Shown here: positions 2,493 to 27,314 of the stretch, in pieces
How positions within the stretch are numbered: position 1 is the first letter of the stretch
Layout of the letters: the number at the start of each line of letters is the position of its first letter
Assembly (NCBI GenBank): GCA_026991225.1
Contig: JALXCB010000192.1
Coordinates: 1-32,680, forward strand
Length of the DNA: 32,680 bases
From: Anaerolineae bacterium
GTDB lineage: Bacteria; Chloroflexota; Anaerolineae; J102
Direction: 5' to 3'
The notes under the pieces: model-generated
Database searches by the model: none
What the model saw: only the letters and a program-made list of their open reading frames with translations
What the model was told of the DNA's origin: nothing
Made by a program: the position numbers and the translations under genes

Positions 2493-5426
2493 TTACGCGG
2501 GAACGCGGTCGAGGACCTTTTTCAGGTATTGGCCCGTGTAGCTGCGGGGGTTGGCCGCGACCTGCTCGGGCGTGCCTTCCGCCACGATCTCACCCCCACG
2601 ATCGCCTCCTTCCGGGCCCAGGTCGATGATCCAGTCCGCGGATTTGATCACGTCCAGGTTGTGCTCGATGACCAGCACCGTGTTGCCCCGGCTGGTCAGG
2701 TCATGGAGCACGGCCAGCAACTTCTCCACGTCCGCGAAATGCAGCCCCGTGGTGGGCTCGTCCAGAATGTACAGGGTCTTGCCCGTGGCCCGGCGGGAGA
2801 GCTCTTTGGCCAGCTTCACGCGCTGGGCCTCGCCCCCCGACAGGGTCGTGGCGGGCTGGCCCAGGCGGATATAGCCCAACCCCACCCGGCTCAGGGTCTC
2901 CAGCTTGTTGCGGATGCTGGTGATGTTCTGGAAGAACGCCAGAGCCTCGTCCACGGTCATTTCCAGCACTTCGGAGATGTTCTTGCCCTTGTAGCGAATC
3001 TCCAGGGTCTCCCGGTTGTAGCGCTTGCCGTGGCACACCTCGCAGGGCACGTACACGTCGGGCAGGAATTGCATCTCGATGCGGATGATGCCGTCACCCC
3101 GGCAGGCCTCGCAGCGCCCGCCCTTGACATTGAAGGAGAAGCGGCCCGGCTTGTAGCCTCGCAGTTTGGCCTCGGGCAGGCTGGCGAAGAGCTTGCGGAT
3201 GGGAGTGAACACGTCGGTGTAGGTGGCGGGGTTGGAGCGGGGTGTGCGGCCGATGGGACTCTGGTCGATGTCGATGACCTTGTCCAAATGCTCCAGTCCC
3301 TCGATGGCGTCATGTTTGCCCGGCTTTTTGCGGGCGCGGTAGAGGCGCTGGGCCACGGCCCGGTAGAGGGTATCGATGACCAGCGTCGATTTGCCCGAGC
3401 CGCTGACGCCCGTCACTACGATGAATTTCCCCAGGGGGAACTTCACCGTCAGGTTTTTGAGATTGTTCTCCCGCGCGCCGCGGATGACAAGATATTCACC
3501 CGTGCCGGGGCGACGCTGCTTGGGGATGGGGATCTGCCGTCGGCCCGAGAGATATGCGCCCGTGAGGCTGGCCTCGTTGGCCATGATGGCCTCGGGCGGG
3601 CCTTCGGCCACGATCTCGCCCCCGTGCTCTCCTGCGCCCGGCCCCAGGTCGATGACCCAATCCGCCGACAGGATGGTCTCCTCATCGTGCTCCACCACCA
3701 GCACCGTGTTGCCCAGGTCCCGCAAGTCGGTGAGGGTGCGGATGAGGCGGGCGTTGTCCCGCTGGTGCAGGCCGATGCTGGGCTCGTCCAGGATGTAGAG
3801 CACGCCCATGAGCTGGGAGCCGATCTGCGTGGCCAGGCGGATGCGCTGGGCTTCGCCGCCCGACAGCGTGCCCGCCTTGCGGTTGAGGGTGAGGTAATCC
3901 AGCCCCACGTCGTGCATGAACTGCAAGCGGGCCTGGATCTCCTTCAGCACCTGGCGGGCGATGGTCCATTCCCGCTGGCTGAGGGGCGAGTTGGGCGGAA
4001 CCTCGTCGAGCAGGGGCGCGTTGTAGTGGTCGTCGGGCCTGGCCCCGCGCAGCTTCTTCACCCAGGCCAACGCCTCGGCCACCGACATTTCCCCCACCTC
4101 ATGGATGTTCAACCCCTGGATGGTGACGGCCAGAGCCTCGGGCCGCAGGCGCTTGCCCCCGCACACCGGGCACGGGCGCTGGGTCATGTAGCGCTCCAGA
4201 AACTCCCCGCGGATGTATTCAGACGTCGTCTCCTTGTAGCGACGCTGCAGGTTGGGGATGATGCCCTCGTAGGAGGTCTGGAACTGGCGCAATCGTCCAT
4301 ACTGGTTCACATAGCGCACGGTGAAAGTGTCGTTGCGCTTGCCGCCGTAGAGGATGATGTCTTGCTGCTTGCGGCTGAGCTCCTTCCAGGGCACGTCCAT
4401 GGGGATGCCGTAATGCCGGGCCGCGGCCTCCACCAGGGCCTGATAGTAGGCCGCGGTGTCCCGCGACCAGGGATGCAGCGCACCCTCGGCCAGGCTGAGA
4501 TCAGAATTGGGTACGATCAACTCGGGATCGAACTCCATCTGCGTGCCCAGGCCCATGCAGGCGGGGCAGGCCCCATGCGGCGAGTTGAAGGAGAAGGTGC
4601 GGGGCTCGATCTCGGGCAGGCTGATATTGCAGACCGGGCAGGAGAGATGCTCGGAGAACAGCCGGTCGGTAGGATGCTCCCGGTCGGTGACGTCGGCCAC
4701 GATGATGACGCCGCCGCCCAGATGCAGCGCGGTCTCCACCGAATCGGCCAGGCGGGTCATGTCCAGGCCGTGGCCGTTGCTGCCGCCGTGCCGGATGATG
4801 AGCCGGTCCACCACGGCCTCGATGGTGTGGTTCTTGTAGCGATCCAGCTCGATATCCTCGTCCACGTCGTGGATCTCGCCATCCACCCGCACCCGCACAT
4901 AGCCCGCCTTGCGGATCTGGTCGAAGATCTGCTTGTGCTCGCCCTTGCGGTCCTTGATCAGGGGCGCGAGGATGAGCAGGCGGCTGCCTTCGGGATAGGC
5001 GGCGATGGCGTCCACGATCTGCTCCACGGTCTGACGGGTGATGGGGCGGCCGCATTGGGGGCAGTGGGGCTGGCCGATGCGGGCGAAGAGCAGGCGCAGG
5101 TAGTCGTAGACCTCGGTGACCGTGCCCACGGTGGAGCGGGGATTGCGGCTGGTTCCCTTCTGGTCGATGGAGATGGCCGGAGAAAGCCCCTCGATCTGGT
5201 CCACGTCGGGCTTCTCCATCAGGCCCAGGAACTGACGGGCGTAGGCGGAGAGGGATTCCACATAGCGTCGCTGGCCCTCGGCGTAGATGGTATCGAAGGC
5301 CAGGGAGGATTTGCCCGACCCGGACAGGCCGGTGATGACCACCAGCTTGTCGCGGGGGATTTCCACGTCGATGTTTTTGAGATTATGCTCGCGTGCGCCG
5401 CGAACGATGAGCTTCGATTGAGGCAT
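2493..5426 (-). CDS. uvrA: UvrA, excinuclease ABC subunit A
   Basis: The 977-aa product is the damage-recognition ATPase of nucleotide excision repair. It forms UvrA2 or UvrA2B complexes that scan DNA and load UvrB. Two ABC ATPase halves are visible, with Walker [10 protein letters not shown] (33-41) and GVSGSGKST (about 660). ABC signatures LSGGEAQR and Walker B segments YILDEPS and YILDEPT are present in each half. Zinc-module cysteines are present: CPQCG, CPVC...CPAC in the first half, and CEAC...CEVC in the second. Length is close to the usual 940-980 aa. The gene stands alone between the interrupted toxin gene and a phosphatase gene. No recognisable LexA box is visible upstream, so SOS control cannot be claimed. 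Confidence 0.98.
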
Positions 5427-13286: not shown

Positions 13287-15941
13287 GTGACAAAAAAGTG
13301 GCTGTTGATCCTGGCCCTGACGCTGGCGTACGCTTCCCAGGCCATTTTCTTCCCCGACAATCCCAACGGCGCGTTCTTCCAGAAGCTGCTGGCGTTCGCT
13401 CCCTGGCTGGGGGAGGAGAGGATGCGGCTGGTCGTTGGCGTGATGGGCTACGCGTTGGCGATGGGACTTTTCGCCTGGGTTGCGCCCGCGATGAATGGAA
13501 TAAGTAATCAGTATTCAGTATTGGCTTCACTACGAAAAGGTTGTTTACCGCAGAGAACGCAGAGGACACAGAGTCAAAAGGTTGGATTCATGGGCGTCTT
13601 CTCCTCGAAACCTGATGATTTTCTCAGCGTTCTCAGCGCACTCTGCGGTAAAATTGTCTTTTCAGGAGGGCCAGTGTCCAGTGTTCAGAGGGGGAGGCGC
13701 GGCGCGTGGGGGACGATGGGCGTGGCGACGGCCTTGCTGGGGTCGAGTATGGCCCGCTTTTTGTTGACGGGCGAGGATGGGATCACGCGGGGGCTGTGGG
13801 TGGCGAGCATGGTCGCCCTGGTGATGGCGTCTGTGTGGATGGCAGGGGAGGGGAGGAAGTTATCAGTGTTCAGTGATCAGTCATCAGTGTTCAGGTGGCG
13901 GCATGTGGCGGTGTTGGCTGCAATCTTGGGAGGCGCGGCGTGGCTGCGCTTCCATCTGCTGGCCGATATTCCCCAGGACCTGCACGGCGATATGGCGTCC
14001 ATGGGCCTCCAGGCCCGCGACATCCTCGCAGGCGCCGCGCCCGGCATCTTTCACCAGGGCTGGGCCGAGATACCCATGCTGGGGTTCTATCCTTCGGTCA
14101 TCGGCCTCAAATTCGTGTCCAACAGCATCCTGGGGCTGAACTTCATGCCCGCGGTGGAGGGGCTGCTGACCATCCTCGGGCTTTATCTGCTGGCCTGGCG
14201 TCTGTTCGACTCCCACCGCCTGGCTGCGCTGGCCGCGGCCGCGCTGGTGGTGAACATCCCCCACATCCACTTCTCCCGCCTGGCCGCGTACATGGACCCC
14301 TGGCCCTGGATCCTGTTCGCCTTCCTTCTGCTGGCCCACGGACTGCGCTCGCGCCGGCTCTGGCCCTTTCCCCTGGCGGGATTGCTGGTGGGCGTGAGTC
14401 TGCAAATGTACTACTCGGGCCGGGCCGTGCTGTTCATCCTGCCCGCGGCCGCGCTCTACCTCATCCTGCTGCATCCCAAAACCGCGCGGCGGGGATGGCG
14501 CTTTGGGCTGGCCGCGGCCGCGTTGTTGGGATTGGGAACTGTGACCGCGTTAGGGCCGTCGCTCATCTACTTTCTGCAGCACACCAACGCCCTGCTGGAA
14601 CGATCCCGGTCGGTTTTCCTCTTCCACGAACCGGTCATGACCCATCTCATGGGCAAGTATGGCGTGGACACGCCCGCGGCTGTCGTCTGGGAGCAGATCT
14701 GGCGCTCGGCCCTGATGTTCAATGACACCCACGACACCAGCACCCAGTTCGGCTACACGCATCCCATGTTCACCCTGGCCCTTTCGCCCCTGGTGCTGCT
14801 GGGGCTGGGATACAGTTTGAGGCGCTGGCGGCATCCGGGTCTGGGATTCGCGCTCATCTGGCTGCTGACCATTCTGATCACGGGCAGCGTCCTCACCAAC
14901 AACGCGCCCTTCTGGCCCCGGCTGGTGGGCATCCTGCCCGCGGCCGCGCTCATGGCGGGCGTGGCCCTGCATGTGACGCTGTCCGGGCTGGGGCTCGATC
15001 GTCCCATCCGCTCGGTCTGGGACCCCAACCCCGCCGTCGTGGTCATGATGGGACTGATCATCGCCTTCCTGGTTCTGGGGCAGCGCAACTGGCGGGATTA
15101 TTTCCTGACCACCAGCAACAACGCCCGGCCCCGAGCCCGCATCGGGCGCTACCTGGACGCCCTGCCCGACGCGATCAACGCCTGCGGCTTCTCGACCCCC
15201 TACCGCCTGAGCGAACGGGAGATCGCGTTTCTGGCCTGGCCGCATCAGCTCCTCGACCTGGAGCCGGGCGTCACCGGCCCGCTGCTGGAAGCCTGTCCGG
15301 GCCCAGAACGCGTCTGGATCCTCTCGCCAGATGAACCCTCCCAGCGCATCCGCGTCGAACGACGCTGGCCCGACGGACAGTTGCGGGAGATTCGGGACGG
15401 TGCGGGCCGCGTCGTCTTTCTGAGCTATCTCACCGGGCTCGAAAGGCTCCCCGCCTCGGCCGAGGACGCTTCGCCCCGGGCCACGAGCAGCGCCTACCTG
15501 CCTAACGGCGACCTGTTCCGACCTGACCACGTCTATTTGGGTGACGTGAATAGCCGGGTGGCGCGCTGGCGCGTGGGCCCTGTGGAGGTGCGCGGCGGAC
15601 GCGTCACGCTCACCATCGGCCCCATCTCCGGACATGACGCCCCATTCGATTATGTCGAGTTTTTGGGTGCGGATGGTCAGCGCCATCGCTTCGAGGCGGA
15701 AGACTTGACTTACGAGGGCGATATCCGCTTCGTGGGCGGACCGGGCCAGGACAATCGCTGGTGGTTGCAGCGCTATGATCCTTTCAGCGGCGGCGCGGGC
15801 CTGGTCGCCCAGAAAAACGAACTCGTGCCCGCCCTGCGCGCGGCCATCCCCCTGCCCGACGGCCTCTACGACCTGACCATCGGCACATTCACAGGCGATC
15901 CGGCCAACGGCGTCTTTGCTTTGGGCGTTTCCGTGCAGTAA
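13287..15941 (+). CDS. GT39/ArnT-like membrane glycosyltransferase with C-terminal beta-sandwich and repeat-derived insertions
   Basis: The product of about 884 aa (GTG start at 13287; an ATG at 13230 would overlap trmD) is a polytopic GT-C type protein. Hydrophobic helices occupy roughly residues 4-21, 45-65, 145-190 and 203-600. The first large loop, FHLLADIPQDLHGDMASMG, has acidic residues where GT39 enzymes carry their catalytic Asp. Such enzymes transfer sugar from polyprenyl phosphate on the outer face. After the helices comes a soluble region and a beta-rich domain (about 750-884; VEVRGGRVTLTIGPISG, LPDGLYDLTIGTF). Residues about 72-145 and 191-203 are encoded by short-unit repeat DNA and look unlike the rest, yet the frame stays open. 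It probably uses the lipid-linked mannose made by the GT2 enzyme at 598 (inference). Confidence 0.75.
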   Translation: MTKKWLLILALTLAYASQAIFFPDNPNGAFFQKLLAFAPWLGEERMRLVVGVMGYALAMGLFAWVAPAMNGISNQYSVLASLRKGCLPQRTQRTQSQKVGFMGVFSSKPDDFLSVLSALCGKIVFSGGPVSSVQRGRRGAWGTMGVATALLGSSMARFLLTGEDGITRGLWVASMVALVMASVWMAGEGRKLSVFSDQSSVFRWRHVAVLAAILGGAAWLRFHLLADIPQDLHGDMASMGLQARDILAGAAPGIFHQGWAEIPMLGFYPSVIGLKFVSNSILGLNFMPAVEGLLTILGLYLLAWRLFDSHRLAALAAAALVVNIPHIHFSRLAAYMDPWPWILFAFLLLAHGLRSRRLWPFPLAGLLVGVSLQMYYSGRAVLFILPAAALYLILLHPKTARRGWRFGLAAAALLGLGTVTALGPSLIYFLQHTNALLERSRSVFLFHEPVMTHLMGKYGVDTPAAVVWEQIWRSALMFNDTHDTSTQFGYTHPMFTLALSPLVLLGLGYSLRRWRHPGLGFALIWLLTILITGSVLTNNAPFWPRLVGILPAAALMAGVALHVTLSGLGLDRPIRSVWDPNPAVVVMMGLIIAFLVLGQRNWRDYFLTTSNNARPRARIGRYLDALPDAINACGFSTPYRLSEREIAFLAWPHQLLDLEPGVTGPLLEACPGPERVWILSPDEPSQRIRVERRWPDGQLREIRDGAGRVVFLSYLTGLERLPASAEDASPRATSSAYLPNGDLFRPDHVYLGDVNSRVARWRVGPVEVRGGRVTLTIGPISGHDAPFDYVEFLGADGQRHRFEAEDLTYEGDIRFVGGPGQDNRWWLQRYDPFSGGAGLVAQKNELVPALRAAIPLPDGLYDLTIGTFTGDPANGVFALGVSVQ
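13505..13694. repeat. Palindromic repeat cluster inside the glycosyltransferase frame
   Basis: A perfect 12-bp inverted repeat, TTTACCGCAGAG (13544-13555) with CTCTGCGGTAAA (13641-13652), encloses further CGCAGAG/CTCAGCG units. It is flanked by ATCAGTATTCAGTATT (13508-13523) and CCAGTGTCCAGTGTTCAG (13672-13689). This is intergenic-type repeat DNA that the reading frame crosses without a stop. Confidence 0.8.
13862..13894. repeat. TCAGTGT/TCAGTGA short-unit repeat inside the glycosyltransferase frame
   Basis: ATCAGTGTTCAGTGATCAG continues into CATCAGTGTTCAG, four units of the type seen at 16171 and 19047. It encodes the loop residues LSVFSDQSSVF between two predicted membrane helices. Confidence 0.75.
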
Positions 15942-19035: not shown

Positions 19036-19046
19036 GGGGTAAGTTT

Positions 19047-19108
19047 TCAGTGTTCAGTGTTCAGTTTTCAGGGTCGATTGACGCCTCCAACTGCACACTG
19101 AACACTGA
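19047..19108. repeat. TCAGTGT hairpin between ctaE and ctaG
   Basis: TCAGTGTTCAGTGT (19047-19060) is perfectly complementary to ACACTGAACACTGA (19095-19108). The units match those at 13862 and 16171. In the transcript it would form a 14-bp stem between two genes of the oxidase cluster. Confidence 0.75.
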
Positions 19109-19123
19109 CCCACTGAATACTAC

Positions 19124-27136: not shown

Positions 27137-27314
27137 ATGCAGGCGTCACGAGTGAAAGCTCGCCGATACGGACGAAAATGAGAACGCAGATGATACGGAT
27201 GCTTCGCATCGCAGATTTCCGCAGATGATTTTCACAGATTTTTTCTTTTTATCTGCGTTCATCCGTTTCAATCTGCGTCATCTGCGTTCCCTAATCCTAT
27301 TTTCATAGCAGGAG
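27137..27314 (+). repeat. Modular composite repeat (A-hairpin-L) ending in the aminopeptidase leader
   Basis: Block A (27137-27178, core AGCTCGCCGATACGGACGAA) is followed by a hairpin of ATCTGCG-type units. Its perfect 12-bp outer stem is GAACGCAGATGA (27182-27193) with TCATCTGCGTTC (27278-27289). Block L, TATTTTCATAGCAGGAG (27298-27314), comes last. Block B is absent. The AGGAG of L is the ribosome binding site of the gene at 27324. Confidence 0.75.

Follow-up and report, generated by a model that had tools for sequence, protein, structure and literature searches.

The locus raises the question of how the gene for a membrane glycosyltransferase can be read, without a stop, through palindromic and TCAGT-type repeats of an intergenic kind, and how these repeats came to lie inside it. 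The gene was analysed in the window, meaning the whole stretch of 32,680 nucleotides, which belongs to a 3.87-Mb, 201-contig draft, a metagenome-assembled genome from the Chloroflexota (Anaerolineae/Caldilineae). The host is presumably an uncultivated member of the Chloroflexota, judging from the titles of its nearest named relatives, which are Anaerolineae and Caldilineae bacterium assemblies. The evidence presented below points to a MITE copy that inserted in frame into an older array of TCAGTNN heptads, and this account as a whole is considered highly probable.

The gene, its orthologues and the two repeat-coded segments

The reading frame runs from the GTG at 13287 to the stop at 15941 with neither an internal stop nor a frameshift in its 884 codons, crossing the repeats as the initial annotation had described. 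The product gave a weak match to PMT_2 in Pfam, below the Pfam cut-off, while its AlphaFold model (mean pLDDT 77.8) matched the folds of AglB, ArnT, PglB and EmbB with E values of 1e-8 to 1e-6, and on this basis it is predicted to be a GT-C-type membrane enzyme. In four relatives trmD lies directly upstream of the orthologue, and the downstream gene is also the same. Same-genus orthologues, likewise located behind trmD, conserve residues 1-70 at 57-61%, and a true start downstream of 13894, which would have left the repeats as mere upstream DNA, was rejected on this ground. Comparison with the orthologue in the genome G004 over residues 1-70 and 205-884 gave a dN/dS of about 0.2. Both repeat-coded segments are N-terminal to a conserved HGDMAS stretch (residues 233-238) that presumably represents the catalytic first loop of GT-C enzymes.

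In five genomes of the same genus, the orthologues align with residues 1-70 and 131-884 but lack the segment in between. In the AlphaFold model, residues 73-132 have pLDDT values below 50 and fall between helices 44-65 and 130-161, so that this first segment is predicted to be a disordered inter-helix loop. Linkers at the same site are also long and variable in more distant family members, indicating that the loop tolerates changes in length. The second segment is likewise modelled in a short loop between helices, in agreement with the placement proposed initially, but this loop has the same length in G004, the nearest orthologue, and is 9 nt shorter in G002, so that no clean insertion can be claimed for it. 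The idea of two separate tolerated insertions was thus not upheld, and the expectation that orthologues would lack both segments held for the first one only. The repeats themselves are real, with slightly different limits: they encode residues about 72-134 (79-129 for the MITE) and 193-203, rather than about 72-145 and 191-203.

Table 1 Features of the glycosyltransferase gene and its repeats, in window coordinates
Feature	Position	Strand	Remarks
GT-C-type membrane glycosyltransferase gene (predicted)	13287..15941	+	884 aa, GTG start, reads through the repeats
TCAGTNN heptad array 1, left part (MITE target)	13501..13522	+	array at this site in orthologue L002: 18/20 (0/200 shuffles)
Left target-site duplication AGTATT	13517..13522	+	4/6 identical to right copy; 6-bp rule from the family
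MITE copy	13523..13672	+	150 bp, encodes residues 79-129; ends and length as in the 32 copies read
Left terminal inverted repeat GGCTTCACTACGAAAAGGT	13523..13541	+	from copy alignment
Left internal palindrome arm (CGCAGAG nonamers)	13544..13573	+	
Right internal palindrome arm	13623..13652	+	
Right terminal inverted repeat TCTTTTCAGGAGGGCC	13657..13672	+	from copy alignment
Right target-site duplication AGTGTC (diverged)	13673..13678	+	
Heptad array 1, right part	13673..13689	+	in register with left part after removing the element and one duplication
TCAGTNN heptad array 2	13863..13894	+	residues 193-203, inter-helix loop (helices 165-192 / 204-222); not a length insertion

The MITE family and its copy in the gene

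The stretch 13495-13700 matched 43 places in the genome, corresponding to about 40 copies of an element of about 151 bp that has sharp limits, terminal inverted repeats of ~17 nt (GGCTTCACTGCAAAAAG...) and inner arms of CGCAGAG or ACGGAG nonamers. The two ends, GGCTTCACTGCAAAAAGG and CTTTTTTCAGGAAAGCC, are inverted repeats of each other (GGCTTCACTGCAAAAAG / CTTTTTTCAGGAAAGCC). Across the 32 copies read, 27 from the window genome and 5 from G005 and G008, lengths ranged from 132 to 153 bp, mostly 149-153, and the copies carry no transposase gene, as is typical of MITEs. Beyond the ends the flanks were unrelated between copies, except for 6-bp repeats on either side, which were exact in 19 of the 32 copies and matched at 5/6 positions or better in 26, compared to 1/320 in a shifted-flank control. 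Constant ends flanked by such repeats identify a MITE that duplicates 6 bp of its target on insertion. Targets follow an A-R-T-N-Y-T-like consensus (A....T in 15/19), and in G008 a tandem pair of copies shares the duplication AGTATT. Other genomes, in the genus as well as in the family, contain full-length relatives.

The palindrome reported in the initial annotation, a perfect 12-bp inverted repeat of 13544-13555 (TTTACCGCAGAG) with 13641-13652 (CTCTGCGGTAAA), was confirmed; it forms the end of a longer, imperfect 30-nt pair, the inner arms of the MITE. As a point against the account, the two target duplications of the window copy match at only 4/6 positions, which implies an old insertion or drift in the right-hand duplication. 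The nearest genomic copy of the element differs from the window copy at about 14% of bases. Together with the adjoining heptads (13501-13522 and 13673-13689), the 150-bp element forms the whole repeat-derived unit, and an example of a predicted tryptic peptide within residues 79-129 is VGFMGVFSSKPDDFLSVLSALCGK. The insertion is carried by one genome only, a metagenome assembly.

A scan for the end pattern in G000, G005, and G012 found no autonomous parent with these ends. Among the pairs listed, the only one a few kb apart, 2.8 kb on contig C47 of G005, was rejected as a parent, as it encloses ordinary genes between two independent short copies. A link to RAYT/REP systems was also dismissed: the element flanks none of the five Y1 (RAYT) transposase genes in the genome, and heptads lie near just one of them. 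At three other loci (L041 5141-5625, L043 1005-1090 and L062 823), a different repeat, bearing TAACTGCTAACG, interrupts MITE copies or adjoins them, which suggests a further mobile element. The open-access literature yielded no report of the family or of its targeting of heptad arrays, and a search by repeat letters returned only primers; both the family and its preference for such arrays appear to be new.

Heptad arrays, nesting and the open frame

The TCAGT clusters were found where the initial annotation had placed them, far beyond chance, with 8 occurrences of TCAGTNNTCAGT in the window against 0.01 expected. Heptad arrays number in the hundreds across the genome, and TCAGTNNTCAGTNNTCAGT occurs 839 times when up to 2 mismatches are allowed, compared to 78 for a backwards control. 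In an 841-kb sample, 62 clusters were counted, of which, by the calls of a home-made gene caller, 44 were intergenic, 7 at gene ends and 11 inside genes. Read in the sense direction TCAGTNN is poor in stops, whereas the opposite direction, through ACTGA, gives TGA in all frames, and the sense orientation of 9/11 in-gene clusters is in line with this, although five of the nine are paralogous NRPS sites and the count is not independent. These five arrays lie in NRPS adenylation domains of L123 (G000:C128; 1846-1878, 5913-5952, 10335-10374, 16492-16531 and 19877-19909), where QYSVFSVQYSE recurs in one and the same loop with inverted heptads (ELNTEHY) after it, probably the outcome of a single insertion later copied with its module. 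Ahead of the RLYRTGD motif in several A domains of L123 there is a third type of dispersed repeat, CACGAAG-like, which in these NRPS genes is apparently read in frame as NHEGTKARRHEEEKELPPLQ. Another large membrane protein, encoded at L133 (G000:C158) with a weak match to YfhO below the cut-off, carries the in-frame array HQYSVISDQF (3741-3766), probably in a loop. Elsewhere in the window, two oppositely oriented heptad arrays occupy the gap between two minus-strand genes (19042-19121), and another short repeat array (GATTTCCACAGAT / ATCTGCGTC) lies in an intergenic gap (27214-27287).

Within the window genome 11/27 MITE copies sit inside TCAGTNN arrays, while heptad pairs make up 1.0% of intergenic sequence in the 841-kb sample, a preference of ~40-fold, and every TCAGTNN heptad contains AGTNNT. 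When 13523-13672 and one duplication are removed, the empty site reads AGTAATC AGTATTC AGTATTC AGTGTTC, in perfect heptad register. At this place the G004 orthologue carries a heptad array but no MITE; the array matches at 18/20 positions, a score reached by 0/200 shuffles, and the heptads thus predate the MITE. A visual impression of shared heptads at the site in G002 was discarded, the 12/20 match being at chance level. The first segment, in which intergenic-type repeats are indeed read in frame, is a true insertion: 13523-13672 is a MITE copy nested in an older heptad array that the closest orthologue retains.

The added length, 150 + 6 = 156 bp or 52 codons, kept the reading frame. A frame-keeping length occurs in 13/32 copies, and the frame used in the window is open in 7/32; the window copy has CAA where close sister copies have TAA. 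A sense-strand heptad array was thus already present in the loop that connects helices 2 and 3, and TCAGTNN arrays supply every 7 bp the A(R)TNNT-like targets that this non-autonomous, 6-bp-duplicating element prefers. We propose that a transposase acting in trans placed a MITE copy into an AGTATT of the array. Because this copy is stop-free in the used frame and adds 156 bp, the gene remains open as one longer reading frame, and the MITE would be read by ribosomes as about 50 additional residues, most of them disordered, within an N-terminal loop that lies outside the catalytic core. The enzyme would still work, and the insertion would persist as nearly neutral and not through any function of the peptide.

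Given that only one genome carries the insertion and that 17/192 copy-by-frame combinations (about 9%) are open and in phase, the frame might instead be open by chance in a recent pseudogene or split gene with a non-functional product. This is unlikely, as both sides of the uninterrupted frame are intact and conserved, few copies are open in the used frame and the TAA of the near sisters has been lost here. A multi-copy element in a draft of 201 contigs could also have joined the flanks of two loci through the dispersed repeat, but both flanks form one gene in the orthologues with the same neighbours on either side, and the divergence from the nearest copy shows that the element is no collapsed consensus; synteny ruled out a chimeric assembly, leaving an artefact with next to no probability. 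The initial annotation had likened the repeats to the palindromic elements of Rickettsia, which would make the MITE a recurrent, protein-building selfish element adapted to genes and donating a useful peptide. The analogy of a repeat read in frame stands, the element being similar in size (~150 bp), palindromic and coding for a disordered loop, but membership does not: with a home-made gene caller applied to the 841-kb sample and the fetched copies, 1/27 copies was inside a called gene, 22 were intergenic and 4 overlapped gene ends, which already largely refutes this reading. Most copies have stops in most frames, and the other match with an intact frame, in G005, was called intergenic, so that a Rickettsia-type role is very improbable.

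A further idea is that the arrays are causally linked to the family as serial excision footprints as well as landing pads, in which case a 6-bp duplication (e.g., AGTNNT) plus one terminal base (G or C) retained at excision would yield a 7-bp repeat. In line with this, the copies at L072 and L047 lie in other heptad runs (GGATATT and AATCTTC), each unit of which adds one base to the 6-bp duplication (GATATT+G in G005, AATCTT+C in G000). The units of the arrays differ mainly at the same two positions, unlike simple footprint duplications, which weakens the idea, and we regard it as improbable; if true, footprints would seed stop-free sense-strand loops in genes.

The in-frame nested MITE insertion offers a clean case, backed by orthologues, in which selfish or repetitive DNA has become protein sequence in two layers in a free-living lineage other than Rickettsia, with frame survival explained by the 156 bp, the stop-free sense-strand heptads and the predicted disordered N-terminal loop. 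It also connects two repeat classes that are poorly understood, in that TCAGT/TAACTGA heptad arrays are preferred targets of a 6-bp-duplicating MITE, which opens a testable path to how the arrays arose.

Relation to known systems

In-frame MITE insertions are already known elsewhere, and the present case is a MITE by anatomy that works like them. Such fusions have been reviewed, with the Rickettsia elements as the extreme case (PMC10969869). Like the Rickettsia palindromic elements (Ogata 2000, 2002; via the review PMC10969869), a palindromic selfish repeat of ~150 bp is found in frame and adds a peptide that orthologues lack, but recurrent insertion into the ORFs of unrelated genes is not seen here (1/27), and the host, the element and the nesting in a heptad array all differ. 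ERIC/RU (Delihas 2007, PMC2759123) and the Coxiella elements QMITE1 and QMITE2 (PMC5896051) are similarly short, bounded by terminal inverted repeats, free of a transposase, mostly intergenic and occasionally fused in frame; the Coxiella QMITEs have direct repeats of 2-3 nt and 7-11 nt (PMC5896051). The present family differs from them in its 6-bp duplications of A....T targets, its strong association with heptad arrays and its terminal sequences.

For the heptads, the closest parallel is the TAACTGA heptamer direct repeats of marine Beggiatoaceae, Cyanobacteria and Bacteroidetes (MacGregor 2015, PMC4679880), which are stop-free in one orientation (LSVISYQ-like peptides), contain stops in the other and occur in a few ORFs (PMC4679880). 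TAACTGA is the complement of the TCAGTTA unit, and both sets are dispersed, mostly intergenic 7-nt direct repeats with a few copies in ORFs. The unit here is TCAGTNN, with two variable positions and TCAGTTA as only one variant, and the arrays differ from the TAACTGA repeats in belonging to Chloroflexota, in lying in loops within a conserved membrane protein and in serving as MITE targets.
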